Shown here piece by piece: positions 17,851 to 43,789 of a DNA stretch of 64,000 bases. The notes below the pieces were generated by a model, which had not been told where the DNA came from, did not search any database, and worked only from the letters and a program-made list of their open reading frames with translations. The position numbers and the translations under genes are program-made. The first letter of the stretch is position 1; every line of letters starts with the position of its first letter. Source of the DNA: Actinopolymorpha cephalotaxi (lineage in GTDB: Bacteria > Actinomycetota > Actinomycetes > Propionibacteriales > Actinopolymorphaceae); contig NZ_JACBZA010000001.1 of assembly GCF_013408535.1 (NCBI RefSeq), positions 2,936,850 through 3,000,849 on the forward strand. Direction: 5' to 3'.

Positions 17851-19467
17851 TCAGGGGCGGCCTGGGTTGTTGAGTGCGGCGCCGAAGGCGCCGTCTGGTT
17901 CGAGTGGTCCCTTGACCTCGTAGGTCCCGGCTGACCAGAAGGCGTTGAGTATCCCATCGCTGTTGGGACCGGCCAGCAGGTAGTGGAACGCGCCGGCATG
18001 TTGGACGCCCTTCAGTGTTTCGCCGGGTGCTCCGATGAGAAGTTCTGCGTGATCTGGGCCTCCGAGGTTCACGATGGCTAGGGAGGCGCCGAACTTGTCG
18101 CCGGTCTCTGCGGCTCCCAGCATTGTGGGAGTGTCCTGGCTGAGGAGTTCTTCTGCGTCGCCGGTGGCGCTGGGTCCGCCGGGTTGACCCCAGAACACCT
18201 GCGCCGCCCCGGCCGCCGTCACACCGCCGACACTGTCACCGGGGACACCGACAACTACGTCCTCGGCGGTCGCGAACGCGTTGAGGTGCCCTACTGCGAT
18301 GGTGGCGCCGAACTCGTCCCCGTCCTCGGCAGTTCCGGTCACGCCCGCGGTGTTCTGCGACCAGAACTCGTTCCCCACGGGCCCGATGCCTGTCGAGGAG
18401 CCGAACAGCACAGCGATGCCCCCGCTCCCGTTCTCCCCCGGGATCCCGACCACCAGATCATCACGCCCGTCCGGGGTGACAGCACCGGCACCGAGTGCGC
18501 TGCCGAAGCCGTCATTGGGTTCGGCAGCCCCGACGATGCCGGCGGTGTTCTGGGACCAGAACCTCGACCCGGCGCCGGTCAGCGCGGCACCGCGGCTGCC
18601 CGGTACGACGACCACACCGCCGGAGCTCGAGTTCTCCCCGGGGATACCGATCGCCAGGTCGTCGATCCCGTCACCGGCGAAGTCGCCCACCGTCAGGCTG
18701 GCACCGAACCGGTCCGACGCCTCCGAAGCTCCCGGGATGAGCGGCGACGACTGTGCCAGGCGCACCGCATGGGTTGGTCCGGCGTTCAGCCCGGCGGTGT
18801 TGCCGTAGACGATGAACACCGCACCCGCGGCGACACCGCTCTCCACATCACTGGGTGCGGCGATGGCCAGGTCGGTAATCCCGTCGTCATTGAGATCACC
18901 GATCGCCAACGCCGAACCGAAACGCTCCCCCACCGTGCGCGGACCGGGGATCGAGGCGGTTCCTTCCAGCAGCATCTTGTTCCCGGTGGTGACGAGAAGA
19001 CGTGCGTTGTCAGCACCGTAGAAGACGTTGACCGCACCAGCGTTGCCGTCCTCGCCAGGGACACCTACCGCGGCGTCGGCGCAGCGGTCACCGTTGAAAT
19101 CGCCGGTGACCACGGCCGCACCGAAACGGTCGTTCGGCTCAGACCCGCCGGCGACTCCGGGGGTGTCCTGGCTGATCCACTGGTCCTCGTACGTGCTCGC
19201 AGTGTCACCGGCATTGAGACCTTCTGGAGTGCCCGCGAAGACATGGATCGCACCCGCGGCGTGGTTCTCCCCCGATGCGCCCGCGACGAGGTCACCGTTG
19301 TCGGTATCGGGAGGAGCTCCGCCCCCGTTCATATCCTGGTTCGGCAAGGTGGGCGCACAAGTCGTCACAGCCGCGTCGGCTCTTCCTCCACTTGCGGCCG
19401 ACGATACTCCGCCGAACGTGATGCAGACGGCGAGGGCAACCAGCCCTACGGCAGGAAACGCACGCAT
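17851..19467 (-). CDS. Secreted FG-GAP repeat (integrin alpha-like) beta-propeller protein
   Basis: I choose the ATG at 19467 because GGAGGAG lies six bases before it; the protein is then 538 aa. Residues 1-30 are a signal peptide (MRAFPAVGLVALAVCITFGG, cleavage probably near AASGGRA). The rest is about seven FG-GAP blades, each with a phrase like DRFGASLTVGDFAGDG followed by DDLAIGIPGEN; the Asp-rich loops are expected to bind calcium as in integrin alpha propellers. The last blade is shortened (DGAFGAALNNPGRP). No anchor or enzyme domain follows, so it is probably secreted or cell-wall associated and binds a partner. Its 5' end is part of a segment copied at about 37.05 kb. Confidence 0.9.
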   Translation of the reverse strand: MRAFPAVGLVALAVCITFGGVSSAASGGRADAAVTTCAPTLPNQDMNGGGAPPDTDNGDLVAGASGENHAAGAIHVFAGTPEGLNAGDTASTYEDQWISQDTPGVAGGSEPNDRFGAAVVTGDFNGDRCADAAVGVPGEDGNAGAVNVFYGADNARLLVTTGNKMLLEGTASIPGPRTVGERFGSALAIGDLNDDGITDLAIAAPSDVESGVAAGAVFIVYGNTAGLNAGPTHAVRLAQSSPLIPGASEASDRFGASLTVGDFAGDGIDDLAIGIPGENSSSGGVVVVPGSRGAALTGAGSRFWSQNTAGIVGAAEPNDGFGSALGAGAVTPDGRDDLVVGIPGENGSGGIAVLFGSSTGIGPVGNEFWSQNTAGVTGTAEDGDEFGATIAVGHLNAFATAEDVVVGVPGDSVGGVTAAGAAQVFWGQPGGPSATGDAEELLSQDTPTMLGAAETGDKFGASLAIVNLGGPDHAELLIGAPGETLKGVQHAGAFHYLLAGPNSDGILNAFWSAGTYEVKGPLEPDGAFGAALNNPGRP

Positions 19468-20090
19468 GAGGTCTCCTCCGGCCCAGCGCACGGATGAGCG
19501 CGATGATCAACCAAGCATGCGCTTTCGCCGTGTACGACGAACCCGTTTCGCACAAGTCGATGCCGTTGCAGCCCTCTAGGCGTTGCACGACAGCTGACCG
19601 GCTCGGACTACTGACCTGAAAGCCGCCGCCATCTCATCACCTCAACAGACAGGGCCTTGCGCTGTCATGCTGCTCGCGCCGGTCGACGACTCGGCGCCCA
19701 CTACGCCACCGCCGCAGACGTGCACAGCTGCACCGAAGGCCGGCCCCTCATGGCGACGGAGAGACTCATATGCGGCTCAGACCCGATCGCGACCGTCCGC
19801 TTGTGTGGCTACAGCCAAGGCGTGAGGCCCTGGTTAATGGTGACCAGGGGACTAACTCGATCCACGGAAAAGGGCGAAACGGCACCGATTCCGGTCACTG
19901 AATGCGATCTTCGCAGGTCGACCGGGGTAGGGCGGGCGGGACTCGAACCCGCGACCCAGGGACTATTAGAACCCCTTCCAACACCTACCAGGCCATCACC
20001 AGCGACTTTGTCCTCAGGCCGCTCCCCCACAGCCACCCTGACCACACCTGTCGCCGCAGTTTCGCACCACAACCCGCACCACGGATGATC
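19443..20090. repeat. Segment duplicated near 37.05-37.75 kb (left copy)
   Basis: This stretch covers the FG-GAP signal-peptide codons, its ribosome site and about 450 bp of non-coding DNA, ending in a tRNA-like repeat. It matches 37043-37749 in the same order and orientation, for example gcagccctacggcaggaaac-type start, acaagtcgatg, ctgacctgaa, gaccaggggactaactcg and the whole tRNA-like repeat. The copies differ by many substitutions and small indels. The gap 19468-20195 shows no credible gene. Confidence 0.75.
19921..20083 (-). repeat. tRNA-like dispersed repeat, copy 1
   Basis: A 163-bp element also present at 37586 and 58048, same orientation. Read on the minus strand it holds GCGGGTTCGAGTCCCGC, a perfect T-arm, after a tRNA-like anticodon region. 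In this copy the anticodon loop reads CTAATAG instead of the CTCATAA of the other copies. The acceptor strands do not pair, so it is not a working tRNA. It ends in a GTGGTGCGGGTTGTGGTGCG-type direct repeat. It marks the left end of operon B. Confidence 0.75.
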
Positions 20091-20195
20091 CCCGCCGCGA
20101 CGCCGGCGATCCAACGATCAGGGCAAAGGCGCCGAGCATGCCGCACACAGCACGGGCGCCACGTCACCGTCCGTGGTGCTCAGGAGGGACCGCTG

Positions 20196-20966
20196 TCATG
20201 CGGTCCGGCGGATGGCCGCGAGATCTGAGCTGTGCCAGATCGGCGGCCCGTAAGCCATCGAGCAGACGGCGTCCAGGCTCTGACGGGGGCAGACCTGCCG
20301 CGCGGTCCGGGCTCCGTCCGTCAGACCCCGTACGCCGCACTGAGTGGCGTGATCCAGTGCCCGCGCCAGTTCGTCGGGCTCCGGGTAGAAGGGTGACAGG
20401 CTCTGCCAGCGGGCCGCGGAGGATGCCGCCCAGCCCAGTCCGGTAGTCAGGCCGGCCAACGTCTCCTCCACCCCGGGGATCTGCTGCAGCCCGAGCGAAT
20501 ACAGCAGGGCCAACACGTTGGTGGCCGCCGTCAGGTCCACGAGGTCGATGTCACGACCGGCTCCCCGACGATGCCAGGTAGTGAACATGCCTTGTCGCAG
20601 CCAGGGCGGGCCGGGATCGAGCACGCGGCGGAGCCGGTGTGCGCCCACCGTGTGACAGGCCACGCTTCGAGCTTCGGTGCGTGAGACCCGCCCGGCCCGT
20701 GCCAGTTCCAGCAGCATGACCGCGGTGTCGTCGCTGTCCGCGGGGAGTTCCGGCGCCCATGCCGGGGTGGCGCCGTACGGCCAGAACCCGTACGAGCCGT
20801 TGGGACGACGACAGGTCTCGAGCAGATCGAGCCAGGCTTCGGGCACCGTCTTCCCCGCACGCCGTACTTCACGTACGGCCAGGGCAGTGACGAACCCGTT
20901 GGAGTCGTGGACCGAACGACCGTCGGCCCACCGCACCACACTGCACACGCCCCCCGGCGCGGTCAT
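20196..20966 (-). CDS. Putative alpha-alpha barrel (prenyltransferase/terpene-cyclase-like) protein
   Basis: 256 aa starting at the ATG at 20966, which overlaps the stop of the 324-aa gene (ATGA); the longer in-frame extension to 21464 is Arg/Gly-rich shadow sequence. The protein is helical with phrases such as RRPNGSYGFWPYG, PADSDDTAVMLLELARAG and LTAATNVLALLYSLG. A 'G-S-Y-G-F-W' turn and a 'DSDDTA' helix start are reminiscent of alpha-alpha barrel repeats in prenyltransferase and squalene-cyclase proteins, but the DXDD acid or zinc residues are not convincing. It is the last gene of operon B. Function is a guess. Confidence 0.65.
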   Translation of the reverse strand: MTAPGGVCSVVRWADGRSVHDSNGFVTALAVREVRRAGKTVPEAWLDLLETCRRPNGSYGFWPYGATPAWAPELPADSDDTAVMLLELARAGRVSRTEARSVACHTVGAHRLRRVLDPGPPWLRQGMFTTWHRRGAGRDIDLVDLTAATNVLALLYSLGLQQIPGVEETLAGLTTGLGWAASSAARWQSLSPFYPEPDELARALDHATQCGVRGLTDGARTARQVCPRQSLDAVCSMAYGPPIWHSSDLAAIRRTA

Positions 20967-21937
20967 GTCGGTCGCAGACCTGCCTGCAGCCAGGTGCCGC
21001 CGGCGCGGTCGACCCCGACGCCTACCATGCCGTGACGCCAGCGGCCGTCGTCCGGTCCCGACGAGAGGGCCTGGTACAACCCGGTGGAGTCCGATCGACA
21101 GACGACGAGATCGGTCGTCCGCAACACCGCCGCCCGGACGTCCTCGTCGTCCGCCCATACCGACTTCGCGACGGCGAACCAGGTGAACGCCATCGGTGTT
21201 CCCCACGGCGCCAGCACCAGGCTGAGCCCGGAAGGTCGTGGGAGCACGACACGACGACCCAGCTGATCCCGTGTGATCAGGTTGCCGACCAGACTTACCA
21301 GCCGGTCCTCGTGGCCGACCAGGCTTGCCGCCGCGGCCAGCTCTGACCAGCTCAGCTCCGGAATGCGGGCGTAGAGCTCGACCGAGCCGTCGTCGTTGAC
21401 CCCCGCCATCCGCCAGGTCAGCCCGAGCACCCTGGACGCCAGCTGCAAGCCGGCGTGGGCCCATGGCTCCGGCGCGCCCTCGTCCAACGGTTCCGACGGC
21501 AACTCAAGGTAGACCTTGGCCCGCCGCGAACCGTCGAGCTGACGTAGCCCCAACCAGGCTCCCCAACGCAGACGCTGCCCATCCTGAACCTTGCTCCATC
21601 GACGCAGATCCAGCCGCGACCCGGCCGTGGCTGCTGCCGCCTGCTGCGCCAACCTCAGCCGATCCGCTTCGGGGACCTCGGGTCCGGCCACCTCACAGGT
21701 CCACCGCAGCGCGACGTCCCGCGACGCCCAGGCCATTTCGACCGGGTAGCCGGTGGCCGTGAGCACGCCGAAGCGCCACGCGACATCCGGCCACTTCGAG
21801 TCGACGACCGGCCGGAGTGCCTCTGTCAGCGCCTCTTCGGCAGCGTCGGCATCGGCTGCGGCTGCCTGGGTGACTCGGATCCGGTCGAAGGCTCGACCGA
21901 GCGCAGGCGGCCACTGCCGAGCGGATGCGGCGTTCAC
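20963..21937 (-). CDS. Hypothetical protein (324 aa), possible ABBA-type fold
   Basis: 324 aa, GTG start overlapping the stop of the 1033-aa gene (GTGA), and overlapping the next gene by ATGA, so all three are coupled. The phrases GYPVEMAWASRDVALRWTCE and RAKVYLELPSE recall the 'xPxExS...RyTxE' and 'KxYxxP' patterns of aromatic prenyltransferases with an ABBA barrel; the resemblance is by eye and weak. No signal peptide or membrane helix. With the next gene it could be a small enzyme pair that modifies a component or product of operon B. Confidence 0.6.
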   Translation of the reverse strand: MNAASARQWPPALGRAFDRIRVTQAAAADADAAEEALTEALRPVVDSKWPDVAWRFGVLTATGYPVEMAWASRDVALRWTCEVAGPEVPEADRLRLAQQAAAATAGSRLDLRRWSKVQDGQRLRWGAWLGLRQLDGSRRAKVYLELPSEPLDEGAPEPWAHAGLQLASRVLGLTWRMAGVNDDGSVELYARIPELSWSELAAAASLVGHEDRLVSLVGNLITRDQLGRRVVLPRPSGLSLVLAPWGTPMAFTWFAVAKSVWADDEDVRAAVLRTTDLVVCRSDSTGLYQALSSGPDDGRWRHGMVGVGVDRAGGTWLQAGLRPT

Positions 21938-24900
21938 CGGATCGGGATCACCTCCTCCGTTGTCTTCACGAAGGCACGCTGGTCGAAGCCGCCAGGCCCG
22001 GTGAAGGTGAAGCGCACGCTGTACTCACGCTGGGTGGCGTCCCGCAGCGGGATACGCAGGCGCAGCGGCTCGGTGGCGTTGCCCGGCAGCTCACGGCGTA
22101 GGACCCGTTCGTACGCGTGCGGCTCGTCGTGGTACTGGATGTCGACGAACACGCGGTCCACTCCGGCGGACGGGAACGAGGGTACGAGGACGAGTTCGAG
22201 GGCATCGGGGAAGAGGTCGTGCACCCGGACCAGGGAGAGGTCGACCGGTACCGGCTCCGTCCGGTCGACGGTGCCGTCGGTGAGCGTCTGCACGAAACTG
22301 ACCGACATCCCTCGCTCCGCCGGCGCGGGCAGGGCTCCACGCAGCCGCCAGACCTGACTGGCGGTGTCCTTCCGCAGTGTCACCAGGTGCCGCAGGTCCC
22401 GTTCCCCGTAACCCTTCGCGGTGAGCTGTACGTCGATGGAGGCCACCACCTCCCAGTCGATGTTGCCGGGCTCGATGGTGATGGTCCGTAGGTCCAGATG
22501 CTCGTACGGGTTGATCACCACGTCCCGGTCCGTGGAGTTGGGCAGCGGGATCGAGTACCTCAGGGCGTCGCCGTCCCAACCGGAGGTCCCGTCGAACGTG
22601 AGGTCCAGGCGGGCGTTGTAGCTGAGGGTCAGCTTGTCGTCGAGGAACGTCGTGAACGTCTGCGGAGCGGTCTGCTGTGGCGTGAACACCAGGTCGCCGT
22701 GACGCATGTGGTCCGCCGGACCGTAGTCGATGGACAGCTGCGCCTCGGTCAGCCCGAGGTCGCTGATGTCTCCCGGCATCCGGGCGGTGACGTCCAACTG
22801 CCGGAAGAACCTGTGGTCGAGATCGATCAGCGTGACGACCTTCTCCGCATCGTTCAGGTCCTTGGCCAGCAGTCCGAGGAATCCCTGCGGTGCAAGGGTT
22901 TCCCGGACCGCGTCGCTGCGCTGGTAGCGAAGGGTCAGGTCCCGGCGTTCCTCCTGCCTGACGTAGCGGAGTTTGAACGCCGCCAACGTCGGCAACTGGG
23001 CCTGGCCGGGGTTCGGAGCCGGACTTGGAGTCGGGGTGGGTGTGGGAGTCGGGGTGGGTGTGGGAGTCGGCGTGGGAGTTGGAGTCGGCGTCGGCGTCGG
23101 CGTGGGAGTCGGGTTCGGTGTCGGGGTCGGCGTCGGAGTCGGGGTCGGCGTCGGAGTCGGCGTCGGGTTCGGCGTCGGAGTCGGCGTCGGGTTCGGAGCG
23201 GCTGCTCGGCTCAGCGTCCCGCTCCAGGAAGGTCCGGCCGCCGAGTTGTGCTGCCTGATCTGAGCGACGCGGTTGTCCGGGTCGCCCCCGAACTCACTGT
23301 GGCTGCCCGGACGTGCGGCGGCAACGGTGTCGCCGAGCGCGTCCTGGACCACCGGGTCCCCGCCGGCTCGCCGTACCAGGGCAACGGCCACGTCCAGCCG
23401 GCGCCGGGACAGTCGCAGGTTGTACGCCGCTCGTACCGAATCCGCCTCCGGATGGGTGTGCTCGTGGCTCGCGTAGCCGCGGACCTCGACCTGTCTGGGT
23501 GCGGGCAGTTGGGCGATCCACCGGCTCAGTCGGTCCGCGCCCTGCTCGGGACCGGTCCAGGCGCCATCCCCCTGTATCTGTTGAATCCCGGTCGCCGACC
23601 TGAATCGCGGGTCGGTCGTGGTGTTCTCGACATAGGAGCGGAACTCGGTGTTCGGCGGCTGGGTGGACCAGCCGCTCTCCGCGGGCTTGTCCATGTCGAA
23701 GTACAGGCAGAAGGTCTCCCCCGCGCCGGGCGAATCCCAGTTCACGTCGATGTGGACCGACTCACCGGGGTTCAGGACCCGCGTCACCGTGCCGTCGGCG
23801 CCCAGAGTCACCTCCTGCCCGGCCAGGCGGACGTGCGCGCCGGCGCCGGTGATCCGCACGCTCTCGGTCGTGCCGGTGGTGGACGGCGTGTGCGTCACCG
23901 ACAGGCCGGTCGGCAGCGGATTGGGTGAGCTGGACTCCTGCTGGAGTACCGCCGCCGGAGGCGCCGCAGGTGGCACCGGCACCGTTACACCGCCGACGGG
24001 CGGTGTCGGCGCCGGCGAGGGATTGGGAGTCGGCGCCGGCGTTGGATTAGGAGTCGGAGTCGGAGTGGGCGTGGGGCGGGGGGTCGGCGTCGGCGTTGGG
24101 TTGGGAGTCGGCGTGGGCGTGGGCGTGGGCGTCGGCGTGGGCGTCGGCGTGGGCGTCGGCGTGGGCGTGGGCGTCGGCGTGGGCGTCGGAGTGGGCGTGG
24201 GGGTGGGCGTGGCCGGCTTGCCGGGAGCCAGCGTGGGCGTGAACCACTCGGCGAGCAGGTGGTCGGTGAAGAGCTGGAGAGCCCACTTCTCCTGGTCCTT
24301 CAGGTCCGCGTCGTCGCTGAATTTGTTCACTGTGACAGTGATCGCGCCCTGGGCCTTCAGCCACTCCAACGCGGCCTCAAGACCCACCTTGAAGTACATG
24401 TACTGCCCCTCGAGACTCGCGCTCAGTCCCGAGTACACCTGCTCGAGGTGTGCGGTGATCGTCACGTCGAGGCTGGGACGCAGCGCGAGGTACTGCAGCG
24501 AGTAGACGACGCCGACCGGGGTCAGCCCCTGCTTGATGGCCTGCTCCATGATGATCGCGCCCTCCTGGCTGAGTACCAGGTTGAACGCCGCGCGGTTGGC
24601 CGCGTCCATCGTCGGGACGGTTGCTCCGAGGATCTGCTCGGTCGCACGGAACGTACCCTCCGGTGCGGGCGTCGCGTCGGTGCCGCCGGACCCCTGCAGG
24701 TCGAGCGCGATGCACTGGACCGTGCCGTTCTCGAACGGGGGTGGCGAGATGGTCACCGGGAGCACGGCTCCGGGTTCCGTGCTCACTCGCGACTCGATCT
24801 TGCTGAGCGTCGCCCTGGGCAACTCGAGCGTGCTCTCGAACATCATGTACCCGCCGCCCTTCGAGACCCCGCCAGCCTGCGCTGGCCGGTAGGTCAGCAG

Positions 24901-25035
24901 TGACAAAGCGGGTGCGCCGTCGGTGCGGTGGGCCAGCGCCACCCGGCCGGGCAGATACCAGAACCGGCTCGGGTCGGCGTGGTCGCGATAGACGGTGATT
25001 CCGTCCACCACCATGGGCTTTTCCAGGCTGAGCAT
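21934..25035 (-). CDS. 1033-aa scaffold protein with OmpA-like domain between Pro-Thr linkers, operon B
   Basis: Start at the ATG at 25035 (GGAGAG ribosome site; the extension to 25590 is Arg-rich shadow). Residues 1-275 form the module shared with the next genes upstream: [20 protein letters not shown] near the N-terminus and [10 protein letters not shown] near residue 185. A (PT)n linker spans about 274-341, an OmpA/peptidoglycan-associated-like domain about 490-600 ([32 protein letters not shown]), a second PT linker about 613-675, and a C-terminal beta-rich region about 676-1033. N and C parts align with the 754-aa protein, so the OmpA part is an insert. No signal peptide. Probably binds peptidoglycan or another sugar polymer. 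Confidence 0.85.
23010..23196. repeat. Pro-Thr coding hexanucleotide repeat (second linker)
   Basis: Imperfect tandem repeats of gtcggc/gtcggg/gtgggc units encode PTPTPN on the minus strand between the OmpA-like domain and the C-terminal part of the 1033-aa protein. Units are six bases, so slippage would keep the frame and only change linker length. Confidence 0.85.
24012..24212. repeat. Pro-Thr coding hexanucleotide repeat (first linker)
   Basis: A second imperfect run of the same hexamers encodes about 65 residues of Pro-Thr before the OmpA-like region. It is the longer and more regular of the two runs (gtgggcgtcggc alternation). Confidence 0.85.
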
Positions 25036-25058
25036 CTTCGCTCTCCGATCGGGGCGGA

Positions 25059-27323
25059 CTACGGGAGCCGGGGAACCAGTACCGGTTCGGCCGACGCCAC
25101 CCAGTTCGTGACGTGCCGCAGGCCGTTCCTGAACAGGACGGTCGAGCGCCACTCGTAGCGGTTGCGGGAGACGTCGACGTAGTCGAACTCGAACCGGGCT
25201 CGGGCGTCCGGGCCGTCGAGCTCTAGCTGGGCCGCGTAGTTGAGGTTCTCGAGGAAGTCCTCGAACCGCAGCTCGAGGGAGATCAGTTCGACACCTCGGG
25301 TCTTCCAATCCGGCGGTGGCATCACCTGGACCACCCGGTGCCCGTGGCTCTTCGGGTCGACGATGATCCGCGGCTCGTACGTCACCGAGGGCGGCAGCTG
25401 CTTCACCCGCCCGTCGACGTAGCTGAAGGTGACGGTGTACTCGATCGCCGTCTGCGTCGGGTCCCGCAGGTCGACGACGAACGTCGGCGTGGCGGTCCCC
25501 TGACTCAGGTGCAGGGTGTCCTCGACGAGGACGTCGTTGGCCTTGTCCTCGTAGCGCACGTCCACGAACACGTCGCGTATCTCGGTCCATGACACGTTCG
25601 CCATGACGCTGAAAGTGCGGGCCCGGAACGGGTTGCGTACCGAGATCTGTTCCTCGTCACTGATCGACCAACCACTGTCGACGTCGTTGCCGTCGACGGC
25701 GCGCATCACGGTGCGCACCTCGTACGAGGTCTTCTCCCGGTCGACGACGAACATCGGCCACACCGCGGAGGGCGACTTCTCGGTCAGCCGGAACAGCTCC
25801 CGCTCGTCGACCTTGTGCTCCTCGTCGCGGTGACGCACGTACACCTCGACCGAGTCGAAGCGGGTCCACGGTATCCGCTCCGCCAGCAGGCTCACCGACC
25901 TGATCGTGAAGAGGTCGGCCTCGGGCAGCAACGACACGATGGGTAGCGAGGTCTTCTCGTGCTCGCTGCTCAGCTCGGCAGGCCGTTCGGTGGTGTCGGC
26001 GTTCTTGAAACGTACGTCGTAGGAGATGTCAACCTCCTGTTGCATGACACCGTCCCGGACGTCGCTCAGCCACTCGAAGTTCGTACTCCAGGTATCGGGC
26101 GTCAGGAGTGCGTTGTGCACAATGCCGCCGTATTCCGCGCGCACGTCGATGCTGTCGATGAGCGGCGCACCAAGGTTGGGCCGGTAGAGCGCCTGGAGCC
26201 TCCGCCTGGTGAAGAAGTCGCTCGCCTGCACTTCACGGACGAGCCGGCCGAGCAGTTCCGGCGAGGCGGCGATGGCCGCGAACAGCGACGTGAGGTGCCC
26301 CTGTGGGTAGATCGACCGGCGCACCGTGGTCCGCTCGGAGAAGTTGACGTCGAGGTTCTTACGGTCGATCCGGGTGTAGTCGGTCTTCTTGTAGCTGAAG
26401 CTGACCTCGTTGTTCTGCCCGGCCGGGCCACCGGCCGCCCAGGCGGCCTGCTGGGTGGCGAATTCGCCGATCGCCTTCAGCGCCCGCTCCCAGTCCGACG
26501 GCTTCTCCGGCGTCCACGGCGGCAGGCTGGGCTCGAAGAAGGCACTGGTGATCATCGCCTTCACCTGGGCCAGAGCGGCGTCACGGCGGTCAATCACGCC
26601 CTCGGTGTCCTCCGCCACGAAGGTGTCCGCGCGCAGGTCGATCGCCTTGGACTCGTCGAGTTCGTCGACCGCCTTGGAGATGTCCGCCGAGAAGATGAAC
26701 ACCTTGGTGCCGAACGTCTCGTCGAGATGCTTCTGAACGCGGTCCCAGTCGATCGACAGCGTCACCTTGTAGGCCGGTCGCAGCGCGAGGTAGTCCAGCG
26801 AGTAGATGACGGCCACCGGCAGGATGGCGGCGTCCAGCGTCGCTCGCACCATCGCGTACCCCTGCTCGTCGAGCTGGACCGAGAACGACGCCTGGTTCTC
26901 GTTGTAGAGCGAGGGCTTGGCGTTGTGCACCGCCTTGACCACGAACGGCTGCTCCGGGGCCGGCTGCCCGTCGTCGGGCGACGGCGGCGCAGCCGAGCTG
27001 TCCGCACCCATGACGACCAGGTGCACGGTGCCGTCCTCCAATGGGACGGTGGCCACGCGGGGATCGCCGTCGAGGTCGAACTGGGACCGGATCTTCTGCT
27101 GCAACGCGGAGATCGCGGCCTGGTCGAGCCCGATGTTGCAGTCGAACGAGAGCAGTCCGCCGTCCCGGCTACCGCGGAACCCGACGAGCTGGAACGCCGG
27201 GGTACCGTCGACGACGGTCAGGTGCGGTTGGGTGGGCAGGTAGTACCACTGCAACGGGTCGGAGTGGTCGGGGAACACCGAGATGCCGTCCAGTACGGCG
27301 CAGCGGGAGTCCAGCAGCAACAT
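25059..27323 (-). CDS. 754-aa paralogous scaffold protein, operon B
   Basis: 754 aa, ATG nine bases after the previous stop with GAGGGG as ribosome site. It has the shared N-terminal module: LDGISVFPDHSDPLQWYYLP (about residues 10-30), GFRGSRDGGLLSFD and, near residue 180, YSLDYLALRP. After a helical region (to about residue 300) a second conserved part begins with TDYTRIDRKNLDVNFSERTT and RSIYPQGHL and continues as repeated beta sandwiches. This order equals that of the 1033-aa neighbour without its OmpA insert, and of the 729-aa gene. No export signal and no catalytic motif. Probably a subunit of a hetero-oligomer made by these paralogs. Confidence 0.85.
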   Translation of the reverse strand: MLLLDSRCAVLDGISVFPDHSDPLQWYYLPTQPHLTVVDGTPAFQLVGFRGSRDGGLLSFDCNIGLDQAAISALQQKIRSQFDLDGDPRVATVPLEDGTVHLVVMGADSSAAPPSPDDGQPAPEQPFVVKAVHNAKPSLYNENQASFSVQLDEQGYAMVRATLDAAILPVAVIYSLDYLALRPAYKVTLSIDWDRVQKHLDETFGTKVFIFSADISKAVDELDESKAIDLRADTFVAEDTEGVIDRRDAALAQVKAMITSAFFEPSLPPWTPEKPSDWERALKAIGEFATQQAAWAAGGPAGQNNEVSFSYKKTDYTRIDRKNLDVNFSERTTVRRSIYPQGHLTSLFAAIAASPELLGRLVREVQASDFFTRRRLQALYRPNLGAPLIDSIDVRAEYGGIVHNALLTPDTWSTNFEWLSDVRDGVMQQEVDISYDVRFKNADTTERPAELSSEHEKTSLPIVSLLPEADLFTIRSVSLLAERIPWTRFDSVEVYVRHRDEEHKVDERELFRLTEKSPSAVWPMFVVDREKTSYEVRTVMRAVDGNDVDSGWSISDEEQISVRNPFRARTFSVMANVSWTEIRDVFVDVRYEDKANDVLVEDTLHLSQGTATPTFVVDLRDPTQTAIEYTVTFSYVDGRVKQLPPSVTYEPRIIVDPKSHGHRVVQVMPPPDWKTRGVELISLELRFEDFLENLNYAAQLELDGPDARARFEFDYVDVSRNRYEWRSTVLFRNGLRHVTNWVASAEPVLVPRLP

Positions 27324-27332
27324 GACAACCCC

Positions 27333-29522: not shown

Positions 29523-29547
29523 GGAAGCTTCCCCTCCTGAAGATGGT

Positions 29548-31545
29548 TCAGACCCGCCAGGTACTGGCATCGGTGACGACGAGCACGGCACCGGATCCCC
29601 CGGCCAGGGCGAGGGCCTGCGGCCCGGTGGCCGCGACCCGGAGCAGGTAGTGGACGGCGACCAGACCGGCCTCCCCGGCGAGCGCTCGCTTCACGGTGGC
29701 GAGGTCGGTCTCGGCGAGTGCGGTGCTGAAGGACGCATCCTGCGTGACGGTGTTGGACGACCCCACCGCGGCCAGGGTGACCATCTGCCCGTCGCGCAGT
29801 ACGAGGAGCTGGACAGCGCCCTCCACCTCGAACGGCGCCACCGACAGCCGGACATCCGCAGCCGCGCCGGCCGCTACGCATGCCTGGCGAGCGGTCTCCT
29901 GGGCGGCGTCGGACACCCCCAGCGAGGTGGTCACCATAAGCATGGCCAGACCCGCCGCCTCGATCAGCGACAGCTGCGGCGAGCCGCTCGCGTCGCGCGC
30001 GGGCCCCGCGGTCAACGGCAGGAAGCGCCAGTCCGCGCCGGCCTTCGGGCCGGCCACCCTGAGGCCCGCTGAATCCACCACCAGCACCCGGTCGTCCGGC
30101 TCCACCCATGGTGGGTTGGTGAACGAGAACGGGTCGAGCCAGACCGCGGCGTCGGGTAAGGCTTGCCGGACGCTTCGGGGATCTGGACCGCGGGTGGTTG
30201 CCTCCGCCTCGACCGCCACGTCGATGGCCTCGCGCGGGACGGCGAGCCAGGCGCGGGTGTCATCCACGGACAGCGAAGCCCGGCTGACGAAGACGGCTGG
30301 GTCCTCTGCGACTCGGGCCCGGGCGGTGACCGTGACGTTGGCCAGGCCGAGCAGTTCGCCGGTGGCGTGCGCGGAAATCAGCCTCACCCCCAGGTCGGCC
30401 GGAGTCACCACCGGGGTGGAGTCCGCCGTCACGCGGCGGCTTTGTCCGGCGACCGTCCTCGGCGCCTGGTCGGTCTCCAGCACCACCGAGCCCTCGAGGT
30501 CGTAGGCGAGTGCTTCGCCAGGCGCCAGGTGGAGCGTCGCCGAAGCAGGTGTGGGCGGCACGAGGCGAGCGGTAGCCGCGGCCGCGAACGGTCGGACGGG
30601 CGGGGCCGGCGGTGCCGTCAGACGGACCGAGGCAACGACCGCTCCGGCCGGCATCGCGGGCAGAGTGCTGTGAACGGTCACCTGCTCCCGCCCGTCGGTG
30701 AGCGGTGGCACCTCGTGACGGCGAACGACGGCGTCCCCGCGCTCGCCGAGCACCGGGTCACAGGTCAGGCGCAGCAGGCGTACGGCCAGCACGGGCTCGG
30801 TCAGGTCCCAGGTGAAGGTCGAGGTGCGCACCTGCTCGGCGAACTGCCACCCGCCCTCCTCCTCGTCCACGAACACCGGAGCGGCCAGTCGCGCCACGAT
30901 CCGATCCACCACGGCAGAGGCCAACAGGTGAACGTCGCCCGGACCTTCGGTGACCGTGACGCCAGGCAGACCGGCACGCGCCCATTCCTCCAGATTCGCG
31001 GGCCGCACAGGTGCCGGGCCGATCCCGTTCGACAGTGCGTCCACGTCCACCGTCAGCCTGCCCTGGCAGCGCGCGGCGACCCCGCGGACGGTGACCAGCG
31101 CGACCGCCCCCAGGGTTCGCAGGCCGGCCCTGAGGGTGCCGACGAGCAGCTCACCGGCCACGCCGTCGAGGCGGACCAACGTCGGCAGCACCACACCGGC
31201 CACGGCGTCGCATGGTTGCGGCACGAGCGCGGTGGACGGCAGCCTGAGGTCGGCGGGAGCGACGAGTCGTACCCATCCCTCACCGAGCGGTGCGGGGCGT
31301 GAGTGCGCCGTGTCGGTGGCCGGATCAGTCGCCGTTGTGCTTGTCTCAAAGGAGAAACCGGCGGCGACAAGCGTGAACTGCGCGATCCCGCCGTCCCGCT
31401 CCTGGAGGTACTGGTCGACCTGCAGAGGCTCCGGACTCAACGAGGTGGGAGCGACCGACAGCATGCCGGGTTGCTCGTAGGCGACGTAACCCTCGGCCAC
31501 GCCGGAACGCTCGGGTCGGCCGAAGTCGGGAAGGCCCGTGAACAT
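29548..31545 (-). CDS. Hypothetical protein (665 aa), operon B
   Basis: 665 aa, ATG eight bases after the previous stop with AGGAG at a good distance. It begins MFTGLPDFGRPERSGVAEGY and is rich in Ala and Val with many beta strands; a helical end section (LIEAAGLAMLMVTTSLGVSD, then ETARQACVAAG) precedes a final region ending VLVVTDASTWRV. It lacks the YYLP module of its neighbours. A hydrophobic helix at about residue 545 is too polar around it to be called a membrane anchor. Not recognised; a structural subunit is inferred from position. Confidence 0.8.
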   Translation of the reverse strand: MFTGLPDFGRPERSGVAEGYVAYEQPGMLSVAPTSLSPEPLQVDQYLQERDGGIAQFTLVAAGFSFETSTTATDPATDTAHSRPAPLGEGWVRLVAPADLRLPSTALVPQPCDAVAGVVLPTLVRLDGVAGELLVGTLRAGLRTLGAVALVTVRGVAARCQGRLTVDVDALSNGIGPAPVRPANLEEWARAGLPGVTVTEGPGDVHLLASAVVDRIVARLAAPVFVDEEEGGWQFAEQVRTSTFTWDLTEPVLAVRLLRLTCDPVLGERGDAVVRRHEVPPLTDGREQVTVHSTLPAMPAGAVVASVRLTAPPAPPVRPFAAAATARLVPPTPASATLHLAPGEALAYDLEGSVVLETDQAPRTVAGQSRRVTADSTPVVTPADLGVRLISAHATGELLGLANVTVTARARVAEDPAVFVSRASLSVDDTRAWLAVPREAIDVAVEAEATTRGPDPRSVRQALPDAAVWLDPFSFTNPPWVEPDDRVLVVDSAGLRVAGPKAGADWRFLPLTAGPARDASGSPQLSLIEAAGLAMLMVTTSLGVSDAAQETARQACVAAGAAADVRLSVAPFEVEGAVQLLVLRDGQMVTLAAVGSSNTVTQDASFSTALAETDLATVKRALAGEAGLVAVHYLLRVAATGPQALALAGGSGAVLVVTDASTWRV

Positions 31546-31553
31546 TGGTTCTC

Positions 31554-33899
31554 CTATGGCTGGGGCAGGGCCAGTAGGTTGCTGTCGGTGGAACGCCAGT
31601 CGGTGTCGGCCTGGCTGCGACCGGAGACGTGCACGAGGGTCTGACGGAAGCGGAACGACCCCAGCCCGCGGTCGAGCAGCCAGTCCTCGAGTGGGACCGG
31701 TACGGCGATGTCGTGCTGGAGCGTGGTGTGGTCGAGGAGTACGGCGCCGGACACGCCCTCGAACTGCACGCCGATGACCGAGAGGTCGCGCTCGGGGTCG
31801 CCCGAGGTGCCAAGGCCTCCAGTGGTGGTGATGAGCGTGACCACGCGTGGAAGGCGTTCGACCCGGCGGTCCAGCGTCTGGCTGACGACCTGCTCGGGTT
31901 GCACCACGACGCGGACCCCGGTGACGTCGAGAGTCACGTCGGCCTTGTCCGGCTGCGCCGGGGCCTGCGAAGGGATGACCGTGACGTCGAGCGTCGCGCC
32001 TGGAGCGAGCGTCGCGGGCAGCGGACCCGTCATCGATGCCGCGGCTCCGTCGGTCCAGGCAGACAACACGGGAACGTCCAACTCGACGTCACCCTCGTTG
32101 AGCAGGGTGACCGTCAGGGAGCCGTCGGAGCCGGGCTTCTCCATCCAGGACAGTGGAGGGACGGCCGGCCGATCGAGTCGCAACTCGACCGGCACCTGGT
32201 GGACTTCATCGTCCACGGTGACGTCCACCCGGCCGCGCAGCAGTGCACTGGCCGCGCCTCCGGTCGTCAGGACGGCGTAGACGTCGCGGAGGTCGTCGAA
32301 GGCGAAGCTCTCCGAGACCCACCAGCCGCGCACCAGGTCCGGCGGAGCGTGCGTCGTGATCGCTCCCCCGGGCAGTCCAAGAGTGCAGGTGGCGGGATGG
32401 ACGGCCGCTCGCAGCTCCGGCGGGCCTGCGCCCGCGGGTACGTGCCCGGCCAGGGCGGCCGCAGCGGCGTACAGCCGGGCCGGAGACGTCTGAGGCACCA
32501 GGTGCACGCTGATCAGGGCGAGCGCACGCTCGGTGCCGGTTTGGGCATCGGTCGCCCTGCCGACCGTGAAGGACAGTTCCGGGCCGTAGGGCGCCTCGGC
32601 GAGCTGTCCGATGAGGAAGGCGTCGGGGAGGTAGTAGAAGACGTTGCCGCCGTTCTGGTCCTGGAAGTACACGTGGTTGCGCGACGTGGGCCCTTCGGCC
32701 GGCCAGGGCACGACCAGGGTGGCGAATCCCTTCGACGCGGCCGGCTGGCCGGAGGGAAACAGATAGGGGTGGGCGTCCACGTCGAAGCGGAGCGGCACGA
32801 CGCTGTCCAGTGTGTTGCTGACGAGCAGGTACCGGGACTCGGTGTCGTTCGGATCGTCGACGACGACGACAGGACCCGGGTCGGGTATCGGCACCGGAGG
32901 TACCGGAGGCACTGGCAGTGGCCACGGGATGGGCAGGGGGCGCCGGTGGTCACGCACGATAGGTCCGGTCCCGTCCCCACTGGGGGTGCGGTGGTCGCGA
33001 ACCACCACGTCGGGCGTTCGCACGTCGTCCCGCACGACGACCTGCCGCAGCAGCGGCGCGGCGGCCACGGCCGGCTGAAGCGAGAACCGGCGGAAGGACC
33101 GGTCAACGACGAGTTGCTGTCGCAGGTTCACCTGCGCCAGTCGCTCTGCCACGCCCTCCGCCTGGAGCAGTGTCTCGTTCGGACGAGGCTTCGGAGTCCC
33201 CTCCTCCGGGATCGGAATGGGTTCGAAGTGCCGTATCGGCTCCGGGATGGGGTTCGGGCCGACGCTGAGTACGAGGTCGGGGAGGATCACGTGCGTGTCG
33301 AGCACGTCGGGCTTCACCACGACCAGCACACCCGGATCGGGCTTTCGCCACGCCGACTGCACTGCGACCGTGATGCTGCGGTGGACCACCAGTCGGGCCT
33401 GCTCCTCGTCGCGGGTGAACGCGCGCAGCAGCGCGTCGCGTTCCGGCAACGCCAGTAGCAGAACGAATTCCGGCCGAACCTGCGTGTCGCCGAAGTTGGG
33501 GGTGAACTCGGCCACGGGGTAGTCGCGCACCATCTGTCCGGCCGACGAAACACTCACGGAGAGTTGGTGCGGCAGGATTGTGGCATCGGCCCGGGAGATC
33601 TCCGGCGCCGGAAAGCTCTCCAGCCCGAACGTCGTCCGCCACAGACCGTCCGCCAACGAGGTGGTGATCTCGTAGTGACCGGTGGCCTGGCTTACGCGGA
33701 GCCGGTAGCGGGGCAGGTAGTAGGCCTTCGCGGCGTCGGCCGGATCCTGGAACAGGACCGTGTCGTCGACCCGCCCGTCGGGGCTGACAGGCACGGTGAG
33801 CTGCGACCGCGGGATTCCGGGCCGGAACGGCCCTATGCGGCGTAGCGTCTCCAGATCCATGCCTGGACGAGGAACTCGCCGTAGCTGAGCTCCTGGCAT
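31554..33899 (-). CDS. 781-aa protein with two YYLP modules, operon B
   Basis: I choose the ATG at 33899 because GAGGAGG lies six bases before it; upstream in-frame ATGs lack this. Module 1 is near residue 45 (VLFQDPADAAKAYYLPRYRL) and module 2 near residue 420 (VYFQDQNGGNVFYYLPDAFL). Between them is a Pro-rich linker, about residues 330-355 (PIPWPLPVPPVPPVPIPDPG). The C-terminal third has a beta-sandwich-like section (SLTVTLLNEGDVELDVPVLS). The duplicate module suggests that it joins or caps the paralogous neighbours. No export signal. Function unknown. Confidence 0.8.
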   Translation of the reverse strand: MPGAQLRRVPRPGMDLETLRRIGPFRPGIPRSQLTVPVSPDGRVDDTVLFQDPADAAKAYYLPRYRLRVSQATGHYEITTSLADGLWRTTFGLESFPAPEISRADATILPHQLSVSVSSAGQMVRDYPVAEFTPNFGDTQVRPEFVLLLALPERDALLRAFTRDEEQARLVVHRSITVAVQSAWRKPDPGVLVVVKPDVLDTHVILPDLVLSVGPNPIPEPIRHFEPIPIPEEGTPKPRPNETLLQAEGVAERLAQVNLRQQLVVDRSFRRFSLQPAVAAAPLLRQVVVRDDVRTPDVVVRDHRTPSGDGTGPIVRDHRRPLPIPWPLPVPPVPPVPIPDPGPVVVVDDPNDTESRYLLVSNTLDSVVPLRFDVDAHPYLFPSGQPAASKGFATLVVPWPAEGPTSRNHVYFQDQNGGNVFYYLPDAFLIGQLAEAPYGPELSFTVGRATDAQTGTERALALISVHLVPQTSPARLYAAAAALAGHVPAGAGPPELRAAVHPATCTLGLPGGAITTHAPPDLVRGWWVSESFAFDDLRDVYAVLTTGGAASALLRGRVDVTVDDEVHQVPVELRLDRPAVPPLSWMEKPGSDGSLTVTLLNEGDVELDVPVLSAWTDGAAASMTGPLPATLAPGATLDVTVIPSQAPAQPDKADVTLDVTGVRVVVQPEQVVSQTLDRRVERLPRVVTLITTTGGLGTSGDPERDLSVIGVQFEGVSGAVLLDHTTLQHDIAVPVPLEDWLLDRGLGSFRFRQTLVHVSGRSQADTDWRSTDSNLLALPQP

Positions 33900-33980
33900 C
33901 GCCTGCCTCCTCGGTTGGAGAGGTGGAGATGGACCCATCACTCGTTCGGAACTACGCGGGGAGCCAGTCGACACACTTCG

Positions 33981-34220
33981 TCAGTCGGCAGGCGGTGGAT
34001 GCGGGTTCTCCTCGGGTGGCTTTTCCGAGGCCACTTCCTTGCCGTGCAGACGATGAGGTGTTCGGCGCTTGAGCCGCGGAACGTATCCCGGCGGGCACAG
34101 CGACTCACCGGGTTCGCCCGCAGACGGGGCGCGAGCCGCCTCCGGATCGATGAGCACGCACTCGTACTCGTCGTCCGGCCCTGACGGAAGTACCGGAGGC
34201 AGCTCGTCTCCCGCGGTCAC
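33981..34220 (-). CDS. Small protein (79 aa) with CPPGYVPR motif next to the neprosin gene
   Basis: GTG start at 34220, one base after the neprosin stop, with GGGGGAG at ideal distance; this shorter start is preferred to the ATG at 34268 inside the neprosin gene. Charged and Pro-rich, with DDEYECVLIDPEAA, SLCPPGYVPRLKRR and a tail EKPPEENPHPPPAD. Two cysteines and no recognised domain; probably disordered. Tight coupling to the peptidase suggests an inhibitor, chaperone or loading tag, but this is speculation. Confidence 0.65.
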   Translation of the reverse strand: MTAGDELPPVLPSGPDDEYECVLIDPEAARAPSAGEPGESLCPPGYVPRLKRRTPHRLHGKEVASEKPPEENPHPPPAD

Positions 34221-34221
34221 G

Positions 34222-35454
34222 TCACACTCCCCCGGGCCCGCCCCAGTAGAAGTACGAGCCCCAGCCACTGGTGCCGCTGAAGTCGGTCCAGATGTCGTAC
34301 GCCGCGGCGTTGGTGACCTGTGGCACGCCCTGAATCCCCACCATCGTGCCGTTCGCGTCGCTCTGGTAGGTGAGGTTGCGCATGTACGCGGCGTGCGTCC
34401 AACCCGCGCCGGGGAGGGTCCCGCTGCCCATGGCGGTGCTGGTGGGTTCGGGATGGTTGGCTGAGTCGTCGACGATCTCGCCGCCCCAGTCGACCTGGTC
34501 GGCCATGGTGCGAAGGCCGGTGTCGCTGTAGAGGCTGGCCGGGTAGTAACCCATCCACTCGGCGCCGATGCGGACCCACCAGTTGCCCTGGTAGAGCTGG
34601 ACCTTGATCAGCAGGTCGTACTGGTCGCCGCCGGCGATGCTCTCGGCCACCCGCATGCCCGGGAAGGAGGACGTGCCGACCTGGACCCAGCCCCTGACGT
34701 CGGTGTTGTAACCCCCGAGGTTGTCGCCGCTCTGGGAGTACGCGTTCGTGGTGTAGAAGATGAAGAGGTGCGGCTCCCAGTCGCCGTTGAGGTCCTTGTA
34801 GGTCTGGGCGCCGACCTCGAGAGTCTGCAGAGCGGCGCCACTCCCCCGTACGGTCCAGAGCTGGCCGAGGGAGAACTCGTTGGACCACTGGACGTACGGC
34901 TTCCAGGTGTTGATGTAGGCCTCGGTGCCATAGTTCGTGACGAACTGGTAGGCGTGCGCGTACTTGTGCTCGGCGCCGATGGCGGGCGGATGCGGGTCGT
35001 CCGGCGGGGTGAACTCGGGCCGGTAGGGGCCCTTGGCGAGGTAGTCCTGAAGGGTGCCGACCGGGCGGAGCTGGTCGATGTTCTTGCGCATCACCGGGAC
35101 CGTGCCTGGCGGGCCCTTCTCCACTTCCGGTGCGCGCAGCGCACGGGCGGCGGCACGGGTGGGACGGGCCGGGTCCTGCTCGATGCCATTCAGCGTCGGC
35201 GGCTCGGCCGGAGCGCCGTCGACCTGGGACTCGACAGGCACCCAGTCGACCCGGTCGCCGGCCGCGGACGTGGTCTGGGTGACGACGTCGCGCCTGGCGT
35301 ACAGGTCGAGGTGGTGCTGCCGGATCTCCTCCAGTCGTTCGGCGGCAGCCTTGAGGTCACCGTCAACCTCGGGCCCTGCGAACTTCTGATGCGCGAAACG
35401 ACTCATCCGCGCCGGCACTGCCTGAGGATTTCGCTCGATGAGCCCGACGTCCAT
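34222..35454 (-). CDS. Neprosin-family glutamic peptidase (prolyl endopeptidase-like), no signal peptide
   Basis: 410 aa; ATG after CTAGGAGGCGGCG. Residues about 165-410 are a full neprosin domain (former DUF239, peptidase family G3), with EAYINTWKPYVQ, GSGAALQTLEVG, DNLGGYNTDVRGWVQV, GNWWVRIGAEWMGYYP and VDWGGEIVDD. The two glutamates expected for catalysis, E213 in LEVG and E326 in WGGE, are present. Family members cleave after proline and usually are secreted. Here residues 1-160 are a charged, helical N-terminal region with no signal peptide. First gene of operon B; I infer cargo or an internal maturation protease of the assembly. Confidence 0.9.
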   Translation of the reverse strand: MDVGLIERNPQAVPARMSRFAHQKFAGPEVDGDLKAAAERLEEIRQHHLDLYARRDVVTQTTSAAGDRVDWVPVESQVDGAPAEPPTLNGIEQDPARPTRAAARALRAPEVEKGPPGTVPVMRKNIDQLRPVGTLQDYLAKGPYRPEFTPPDDPHPPAIGAEHKYAHAYQFVTNYGTEAYINTWKPYVQWSNEFSLGQLWTVRGSGAALQTLEVGAQTYKDLNGDWEPHLFIFYTTNAYSQSGDNLGGYNTDVRGWVQVGTSSFPGMRVAESIAGGDQYDLLIKVQLYQGNWWVRIGAEWMGYYPASLYSDTGLRTMADQVDWGGEIVDDSANHPEPTSTAMGSGTLPGAGWTHAAYMRNLTYQSDANGTMVGIQGVPQVTNAAAYDIWTDFSGTSGWGSYFYWGGPGGV

Positions 35455-36300
35455 CGCCGCCTCCTAGTACCCGCACCGTGTGACGCGCCGCGATGAAACC
35501 CGGCCCCGTCTCGGCGCGAACGTCGAGGGATGGCTGAGGCCGATCGACTGAGTCGAGCAAGACCTTGCACGTCTGGTCGACGAGGAGGTCGAGTTAACAG
35601 AAAAAGAGGAGACCAGCATCGGAACTCCCGTCCCCCTGGGCAACGGCCTCCAAACGCTTTTGTGAGGCCGGTTGCACTAGAAAACACCACTCTCACCGTA
35701 CGGTCAAGAGTTCCTCAACTCCGAATCAACCGAGCCTTGCGACGATGGCTGAACCCGCCTCGGCCACTACGACCCGGCTCGCCGACCCGGGCACGAGCTG
35801 CTGCACCGTCCCGTGCGCAGAGCCCAACCCCGCCAGCGAGGCGCGTACCATCCGCGCCGTGGCTTCCTGGGGTTGTACCAGTGGTGTCGGGCGCCTCCCA
35901 ACACCGCGGCGTGCAAGGCTACGACGATTCGGGTCCACAAAGGGATCGACCTTCGACCTACTCCAGACGCCAGAGTGCAATAGATACCGACGCGAGTCTT
36001 TCTGCAGTTCGACAGAGCTCGAAATTGCTCGCCCAGAGTTCTCACGACGAGTCAGGATCGCGCAAGGTTGGCGAATTTGTTCACCTGGTGTGCCGCTCTT
36101 CGTCATTCAACCATTAGAGAAGCGGACAACATTGTCGGCATCAGTTCGGGTCTCCGAACTACCGATGAGAAGTGAAACGACCTTCAGCGGCGCAGACCAA
36201 AGCGATGCAGGACACGCGCCGCGCTGTAGGCGCTTGCGGCCGGGGGCTTGATTTGAGAAGGCTCAATAGGTCAATGCCGAGGTTGGGAACCGGTCCACGT
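35455..36300. other. Gene-free stretch upstream of operon B
   Basis: About 850 bp. Open frames here on both strands are Ser/Arg-rich and out of step with each other, and none has a ribosome site or a recognisable domain. It must contain the promoter for operon B, but I see no clear -35/-10 pair. Base composition is slightly lower in GC than the operon, in keeping with decayed or acquired DNA. Confidence 0.5.
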
Positions 36301-36378
36301 GGGACGGAGCGTCGAGCGAGGGCTCGGACGCCTCAGTCGGGGTCGGCGAGTTCGGGTCGGTAGGCCGGCCCGCAACTC

Positions 36379-36989
36379 CATGGTGCGACTCGACGGCCGT
36401 GATCAATACCGCACTCCCGGCCAGGGGATCATCAACCGCTGGTGCACCTATACCGGCGATCCGGAGCCCGGCACCGGCAAGATCCACATCTTCAGCTATC
36501 CCCCTCCGTTCACCGAAGGGCTGGGCTGGTCGACCGCAAGCACGTTCCGGACTTCGTGTTAATGCCCGAGTGGGTCCGCGACGTGGGTAACCGAGGACGG
36601 GCCAGGGAGCGTCAACTGCCCGGTCACCCACAGGCGCGGCGTGTAAGAGCGGGCCGCTCGACCTCCTGCCGCCGAAGTTGTGGAACTCATCGAGCACACG
36701 TCGCAAGAAGTGCCGGATCGAACTGCCGCCTGCGGTGAACCGTAACCCCGATCCCGGGTGCGGGATCCTGGAGATCACCTTCGAAAAAGGCAAGCCACCG
36801 GCAAGGCGCTTGGTACGACGAGTACGCGAGCCCAGCGACGACAATCTCCGACGACCTACGCGAAGTAATCCAGTGGGCGCAGGCCCAGCCCGCCGAACGA
36901 AAGTCTTCTACGACGTCGGAAGGCCCGGCCCCGGCGACCTGGACAAGTTCGCCGCCAACCCCGACCACTACCTACACGAGCCCTCCTGA
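36379..36989 (+). pseudogene. Decayed protein-coding remnant with several frameshifts
   Basis: Protein-like pieces occur in order on the plus strand but in different frames: IINRWCTYTGDPEPGTGKIH (frame stops soon after), LVDRKHVPDFVLMPEW, PGCGILEITFEKGKPP, WYDEYASPATTISDD with LREVIQWAQAQPAERK, and VFYDVGRPGPGDLDKFAANP ending in a stop at 36989. Together they look like one former gene of about 200 codons. I do not recognise the family; 'HVPDF' is faintly like TnsA-type nucleases. Confidence 0.45.
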
Positions 36990-37078
36990 CAAGCACAGCC
37001 TCGCGCAACGGCACGGAGAATGGTGGCAAGCACTGTCTCCTCGACGGCAAGCAGCCCTACGGCAGGAAACGTACGGAT
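36968..37078 (-). pseudogene. Remnant of a second FG-GAP gene: signal peptide only
   Basis: The minus strand from 37078 reads (I)RTFPAVGLLAVEETVLATIL and then stops at 36968; the live gene at 19467 reads MRAFPAVGLVALAVCITF. The start codon has changed from ATG to ATC, the ribosome-site region (ggagggGAGACCTC) is kept, and no FG-GAP repeats follow. It is a dead stub inside the duplicated segment. Confidence 0.7.
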
Positions 37079-37749
37079 GAGGTCTCCCCTCCAGCGCAGT
37101 TCGCGTGGCAGACGCGCGTGATCAATCAGCATGCGCACCCGCTGTGCCCAACGAGCCCGGTTCGTACAAGTCGATGAGACCCTTGCAGACTCCCAGGTGA
37201 CGCGCGGCCACTGACGACCTTGGACCCCTGACCTGAAGGCCGCGGCTATCTCACCATCTCGGTGACAGGGGCCTTGTCCCGTCGGCACAGGGAAATCCAC
37301 TCGGGAGGTTCGTCAACGCCTGCGTCGTGGATGCTCCCACCCCTCAACTAGCTAAAGCCCGTTACGACGCCGCCGCACCAACGTGCTGAGTTCCACCAGT
37401 AGCAGGCTCCTCACCGCGACGGATGAGCTCCTGGGGTTCTGGGGCCGACTTCATCCGTGCGCTTACGTGTGGACACAGTCAAAGCATGAGGCCACCGACG
37501 ACGGTGACCAGGGGACTAACTCGCACCACGAAAAGGGGCGAAACGGACATAGATTTCGGTCACGAAATGTGATCTACGCAGGTCAACCGGGGTAGGGCGG
37601 GCGGGACTCGAACCCGCGACCCAGGGATTATGAGAACCCCTTCCAACGCCTACCGGGCCATCTACCAGCGACTTTGTCCCCAGGTCCACCCCCTACAGCC
37701 ACCCTGACCCCACCGATCACCACCGTTTCGCACCACAACCCGCACCACG
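37043..37749. repeat. Segment duplicated from 19.44-20.08 kb (right copy)
   Basis: Same order of matching blocks as the left copy: FG-GAP signal-peptide codons, gtacaagtcgatg, cccctgacctgaaggccg, gtgacaggggccttg, gaccaggggactaactcg, gaaaaggggcgaaac and the tRNA-like repeat. No credible intact gene lies in it. The two copies enclose operon B as direct repeats about 17.6 kb apart. Confidence 0.75.
37586..37749 (-). repeat. tRNA-like dispersed repeat, copy 2
   Basis: 164 bp, nearly identical to copy 3 at 58048 and close to copy 1. Minus-strand reading has an anticodon-like loop CTCATAA (Met-type CAT) but its stem has two mismatches, then GCGGGTTCGAGTCCCGC as T-arm. It marks the right end of the operon B cassette. 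Confidence 0.75.
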
Positions 37750-37825
37750 AGGAGCCTCTTCGCCGTATCGGGAGAGCCTCTGTGTACGCAACCCAGTGGG
37801 TCCAAAACCGTAGCCTGCGGCTCGG

Positions 37826-41168: not shown

Positions 41169-43789
<2,621 letters not shown>

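Follow-up and report, generated by a model that had tools for sequence, protein, structure and literature searches.

The 64,000-nucleotide stretch of the Actinopolymorpha cephalotaxi genome analysed here (contig NZ_JACBZA010000001.1, positions 2,936,850 to 3,000,849; the window) carries a set of eight predicted genes, operon B (20196–35454, minus strand), that lies between two direct repeats, R1 (19431–20083) and R2 (37042–37749, both plus strand). We interpret these repeats as the first and second composite attachment sites in a row of former mobile elements. To the left of operon B, an FG-GAP repeat gene (PF01839; 17851–19467, minus strand) forms the right end of the unit carrying a further gene set, operon A, and has its start inside R1. 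To the right of R2, a RelE-type toxin gene (TIGR02385) and a Phd/YefM-like antitoxin gene (below the Pfam cut-off), at 37826–38484 on the minus strand, begin another unit, C. Comparisons were made between the window's own genome (G000, 6.86 Mb in one contig) and corresponding stretches of five relatives of the same genus (G001–G005), of which G001 is a draft. Operon B sits in a block (20127–36366) that is 97% identical to positions 34892–51151 of contig C20 of G001.

The two repeats, delimited by BLAST and by local scores of sub-blocks, are 72.7% identical over 714 columns (E = 1.7e-107), with a longest exact match of 42 bp. R1 comprises the FG-GAP gene start with its upstream region (19431–19660, minus strand), a middle block, a left arm (19803–19905, plus strand), a core (19906–19969, minus strand) and a right arm (19970–20083, plus strand). 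In R2 the FG-GAP gene is reduced to its first bases at the left end; its left arm (37467–37570, plus strand) and core (37571–37634, minus strand) are followed by a right arm (37635–37749, plus strand) that opens unit C. Identity between the copies is 60/64 in the core, 102/113 in the right arm, 81/103 in the left arm, 180/227 in the FG-GAP start and upstream region and 102/137 in the middle, that is, 74–79% outside the core and right arm. Since 100 random pairs of 230-bp segments from the window aligned with the same global aligner averaged 72% (maximum 79%), these latter percentages say little alone, and the case for a repeat there is therefore carried by the local scores. All five sub-blocks beat all 500 shuffles, while the 230 bp beyond the outer edges were at background: on the left 103 of 500 shuffles did equally well, and on the right 336 of 500. 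A third copy, consisting of core and right arm without a left arm, lies at 58048–58211 (plus strand, 90–91% identity by BLAST). The repeats do not have the make-up expected of a composite transposon, as they hold a half tRNA gene, arms and an FG-GAP start, not insertion sequences. One of the longest open reading frames (ORFs) listed in R1 and R2, at 37662–38018, had no family match, the scan of such ORFs having covered this one. The FG-GAP upstream region of R1 recurs upstream of other FG-GAP genes, for example at locus L006; one such gene lies at 6.2 Mb.

The core is the displaced 3′ half of a tRNA-Met(CAT) gene, followed in R1 by a short trailer. The intact gene was located by ARAGORN at 3027209–3027284 of G000 on the minus strand, equivalent to window positions 90360–90435 and so outside the window, and the repeat core was found again there, at 3027191–3027252. 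The displaced cores share the orientation of the intact gene and lie on its 3′ side. Within the window, ARAGORN detected no tRNA and an Rfam scan at gathering thresholds returned nothing, because the copies are half tRNAs. We aligned 17 sites from the six genomes, made up of 6 intact tRNAs and 11 displaced copies. The tRNA homology of the displaced copies takes in the 3′ half with a trailer of at most about 18 bp, and it breaks off at the anticodon loop. Of the 11 displaced copies, the 10 in which the core is preserved show this end point; the other, in G003, lacks most of the core. In R1, the core is altered close to the anticodon loop, at the crossover point. Past the loop, a right arm some 114 bp long is common to the copies of G000, G001, G002, G003 and G004. 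In G004, and likewise on contig C15 of G001, the left arm stands directly beside the intact tRNA, which fits the tRNA-side end of an element, and the left arm of R1 can be read as the tRNA-side arm of the element on its left.

Such copies are general in the genus. A 35-base piece of the tRNA 3′ half, with up to three mismatches allowed, occurs 15 times in the six genomes (4, 2, 2, 2, 2 and 3) and once in each of two genomes from other genera of the family (reversed control, 0), and a longer query found two further, diverged copies in G003. All six genus genomes thus hold extra, displaced copies, which keep a single orientation within each complete genome; the two copies of G001 are on different contigs of its draft. 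In G000, three displaced cores and the intact tRNA amount to a succession of several units at a single target gene, each bounded by attachment (att) sites. Judged by its sequence, the combination of half tRNA and arms is the signature of tyrosine-integrase attachment sites of the anticodon class (PMC4383910).

The preliminary description of this DNA had reported direct repeats of about 700 bp that enclose the whole of operon B and end in a tRNA-like sequence. The repeats are real, with their edges refined to the positions above, and all eight operon B genes lie between them. The tRNA-like part proves to be half of a real tRNA gene, and the 164-bp core recognized there corresponds to the tRNA core with its short 3′ trailer plus an element arm of about 114 bp. 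Outside that core, too, sub-block scores exceed those of shuffles. The same description saw decay at 35.5–37.8 kb. Up to 36366, the sequence belongs to the block shared with G001, and this part of the claim falls; only 36367–37041, between the operon B block and R2, is unmatched in the relatives' stretches searched.

In G000, an integrase N-terminal domain (PF14659, E = 1e-9) adjoins the 3′ end of the tRNA. Its ORF is cut short by a stop, and the piece in the same frame past that stop had no Pfam match and no match to a catalytic domain. In G005, a protein with an integrase catalytic domain (PF00589) adjoins the tRNA. The array of G000 gave no match to PF00589, PF00239 or PF01580, relaxases and other transfer families not being among those searched for. 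The FtsK/TraB-type translocase family PF01580 has four matches in G000, none of them in the array.

The order of units, given throughout in the orientation of the window, varies among G000, G001, G002 and G004. In G000 it is X, A, R1, B, R2, C, the 58.1-kb core, D, tRNA, where unit C holds the toxin-antitoxin pair, an oxidoreductase, chaperones and others, and unit D, among the genes scanned, transport and regulatory genes. G004 has X with its two parts swapped, glycosyltransferase and polysaccharide genes, a single repeat, C and the tRNA, without operon A or operon B; its repeat is interrupted by a Mutator-family transposase gene that separates the left arm from the core, with what looks like a 9-bp duplication of the target. 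In G002 the order is A, a 4.6-kb gap, C, an att copy, other cargo and the tRNA, with part of D to the left of A. On C20, G001 carries part of C, a left-arm remnant, X, B, A (beginning 37 bp after B), an FG-GAP start and an rve-domain gene, then a stretch like the integrase region of G000, an att copy and toxin-antitoxin genes; on C15, FG-GAP sequence and a left arm precede the tRNA. G003 and G005 have neither A nor B, so that operon B is missing from four of the six genomes. The worn array is legible because sister species hold the same pieces in differing orders.

Silent sites give the units different histories. Between G000 and G001, identity at four-fold sites is 94.3% for operon B (8 genes, 2999 sites), 88.0% for A (7 genes), 84.5% for C (9 genes) and 78.6% for X (3 genes), against 82.6% for a backbone of 22 genes beyond the tRNA. 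Single operon B genes range from 0.903 to 0.965, a range reached by one of the 22 backbone genes. Rank tests gave p = 1.1e-5 for operon B and, for A against backbone, p = 0.02 with G001 and p = 0.02 with G002, values to be read with the reservation that genes within one operon are not independent and that codon bias was left out. These differences suggest that operon B was exchanged between species of the genus recently, after their lineages split, by a route not seen here. They do not date its arrival beside R1. For the repeats themselves, the left arm of R1 is 81% identical to the tRNA-side arm on G001 C15 and 73% identical to the left arm of R2, and a tree of left arms places R1 with G001 C15 (support 0.88) and R2 with the G001 remnant (0.96). 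The greater likeness of R1 to G001 implies that the two left arms parted before the species did.

From these results, we consider it highly probable that R1 and R2 are two junctions inside a tandem array of integrative elements, all of which had the same tRNA-Met(CAT) gene for their attachment site. Tyrosine integrases would have inserted successive elements at the tRNA or at an att copy of a resident element, each insertion keeping the tRNA whole and leaving a displaced 3′ half behind. Later loss of integration and transfer genes would have left att-bounded units of cargo, similar to cis-mobilizable elements (CIMEs), and operon B would be the cargo of one such unit. Because the G000 array has no intact integrase, we claim a decayed island array, not a functional element, and because it lacks a PF01580 match we do not class it as an actinomycete integrative and conjugative element (AICE). 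The array looks immobile at present, unless an integrase comes from elsewhere, since the tRNA-side integrase is broken and the R1 core altered.

This reading upholds the earlier suggestion that the repeats mark an old boundary, the boundary being that of mobile elements, and alters much of the rest. A site with one repeat and no operon B, of the kind to be looked for in relatives, exists in G004, and G001 has the operon without repeats at its edges; together these point to an array and not to a private operon B unit. A 17.6-kb unit of its own is not supported, as the repeats belong to an array that reaches the tRNA at 90.4 kb, and an operon B without repeats, as in G001, had been named beforehand as evidence against such a unit. 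Loss or duplication of the operon at the present day by recombination between R1 and R2, as also proposed, looks unlikely, given a longest exact match of 42 bp, the altered R1 core and the broken integrase.

Several observations weigh against a tandem array. Excision was not observed. No convincing repeat copy was found in the gap between A and C of G002 (best E = 0.001 over 32 bases), and operon B of G001 (34892–51151) has no repeat at either edge. The two displaced copies of G005 share arms of another type. A PF00589 match was found in no array stretch of G000, G001, G002, G003 or G004, which leaves the arms in question without an integrase that can be assigned to them. The tree of left arms has one node with a support of 0.04, and by plain identity the R2 left arm is nearer to those of G004 (76%) and G002 (75%) than to its tree partner, the G001 remnant (72%). 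The R2 right arm is nearest to that of R1 (88%), above the G001 and G004 arms that stand beside the same toxin-antitoxin genes (84% and 82%). Lastly, the motif CGCACCACG, common to both arms, was not clearly enriched (6 sites against 2.9 expected, with as many in 7 of 100 shuffles) and was dropped as a candidate integrase arm site on that ground.

The likeness of the right arms is also what would be expected if operon B had been inserted at a single site and had duplicated that site into R1 and R2, as the preliminary description allowed; direct repeats do flank the operon, and it is absent from four of the six genomes. We regard this as very improbable. The R1 left arm is nearer to G001 than to R2, and that of R2 slightly nearer to G004 and G002. 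As the R2 right arm is closest to that of R1, the argument from age rests on the left arms: these argue against a repeat pair made in this lineage by insertion of operon B, while the right arms are of no help. Furthermore, genomes that lack operon B have the same core, which is also present at 58.1 kb, and the operon of G001 lacks edge repeats. We give little more credence to an origin with no integrase involved, in which segmental duplication of the ordinary kind, together with homologous recombination, took place around a relic of the tRNA. The arrays of five of the six genomes are indeed without an intact integrase, and transposase genes near the G001 and G004 junctions show that other rearrangements happen. 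However, the end point in the anticodon loop recurs in independent copies with two types of arm (G005 and the rest), integrase genes or their remnants adjoin the tRNA, and the copies keep one orientation in each complete genome.

Alternatively, A and B might be halves of one composite element, in the order B-A seen in G001, and A-R1-B of G000 the junction of two tandem copies that suffered complementary losses. The 37-bp spacing of B and A in G001 favours this, as do the FG-GAP starts that follow A in G000 and G001 and the truncated FG-GAP start that follows B in G000. It is nonetheless unlikely, as no remnant of A to the right of B, or of B to the left of A, was found in G000, G002 has A without B, A and B differ in silent-site identity to G001 (88% and 94%), and R1 and R2 are not close copies. 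The tandem array remains our preferred reading. Beyond it, the array may serve the genus as a platform for cargo exchange, in which the whole operons A, B, C and D are interchangeable and change places from one species to the next. Some of these, such as operon B, would have been exchanged after divergence of the backbone, without any integrase of their own; the route may have been circular permutation of a composite element, B-A, that has the FG-GAP gene and arms in common at its two ends. We put this forward as a speculation, with the balance of probability rather against it.

Operon B encodes large proteins without a family match and a Neprosin protein. Scans with Pfam, NCBIfam and PADLOC named only Neprosin, together with one sub-threshold NCBIfam match. 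The largest protein has two tracts of 12-base repeats coding for Thr-Pro linkers (22936–23279 and 23959–24278). A structural model of the protein encoded at 27333–29522 (mean pLDDT 75, pTM 0.37) matched multi-domain, beta-rich entries of the PDB with query TM-scores of 0.07–0.15 among the 50 matches listed and was set aside as uninformative, and a profile search of PDB sequences gave nothing. All eight genes, with their order kept, are found in Cellulomonas endophytica (L070), and six or seven of the eight, also in order, at nine further loci (L071–L079: Marmoricola, Hydrogenophaga, five Lysobacter, Nakamurella and a Nitrospira metagenome-assembled genome); two shorter loci have fewer. No tRNA lay near the operon B homologues at the 10 loci scanned of the 12 found. 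Among 391 genomes of the order, 4 had a match to one operon B protein, its own genome included, and two of the four matches were at 31–32% identity. The literature searched held nothing relevant that joins neprosin, FG-GAP, genomic islands and actinobacteria.

Operon A (1–17149, running on to the left of the window) encodes a DUF6603 protein along with others of very large size; the literature searched held no paper on DUF6603. The block is shared with G001 and G002, its edges differing little among the three genomes, and at its left edge is a perfect, terminator-like inverted repeat of 17 bp. Left of operon A lies a remnant of the FG-GAP upstream region without a tRNA core (L005:1501–1606), which may be what is left of another unit boundary. 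Also left of the window, L009:1039–17148 encodes phage-sheath, baseplate-J and collagen-repeat proteins, a cluster that presumably resembles a contractile injection system; its genes had no match in the relatives' stretches compared.

With this analysis, the repeat pair becomes a set of mapped island boundaries and operon B gains a history of transfer. As an eight-gene set conserved in distant bacteria, operon B is the more interesting object to follow up. The proposed structure itself, tandem accretion of mobile islands at one tRNA, is of a known kind. In Streptomyces, AICEs, defective AICEs and remnants are accreted at one tRNA gene (PMC9513070), and tandem AICEs are described in Frankia and S. 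avermitilis (PMC3218068). Those accounts, in the portions drawn on here, share with our array the single tRNA gene, the succession of several elements separated by direct repeats, a content that varies among strains and remnants that, in our case, apparently lack transfer genes. The array of G000 differs in having no FtsK/TraB-type match, no intact integrase and large cargo operons, and R1 and R2 are about 73% identical, whereas the Streptomyces junction repeats are described as identical (PMC9513070). CIMEs, as the relevant part of one account has them (PMC5704250), are cis-mobilizable att-bounded units that lack integration and transfer genes and lie stacked where a tRNA gene has its 3′ end. 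The units here are bounded and placed in that way and apparently lack such genes; one core, however, is altered at the crossover point, and mobilization by a partner element would be hypothetical. The tRNA islands of the Islander type, in the passages considered (PMC4383910), combine an intact tRNA with displaced 3′ fragments in the same orientation and include a class with the crossover centred on the anticodon. That method needs an integrase gene and, for tandems, an integrase and a fragment for each member, a filter that the present array would fail. Decayed tRNA arrays of this kind, which searches requiring an integrase pass over, can be read by comparison of sister species.

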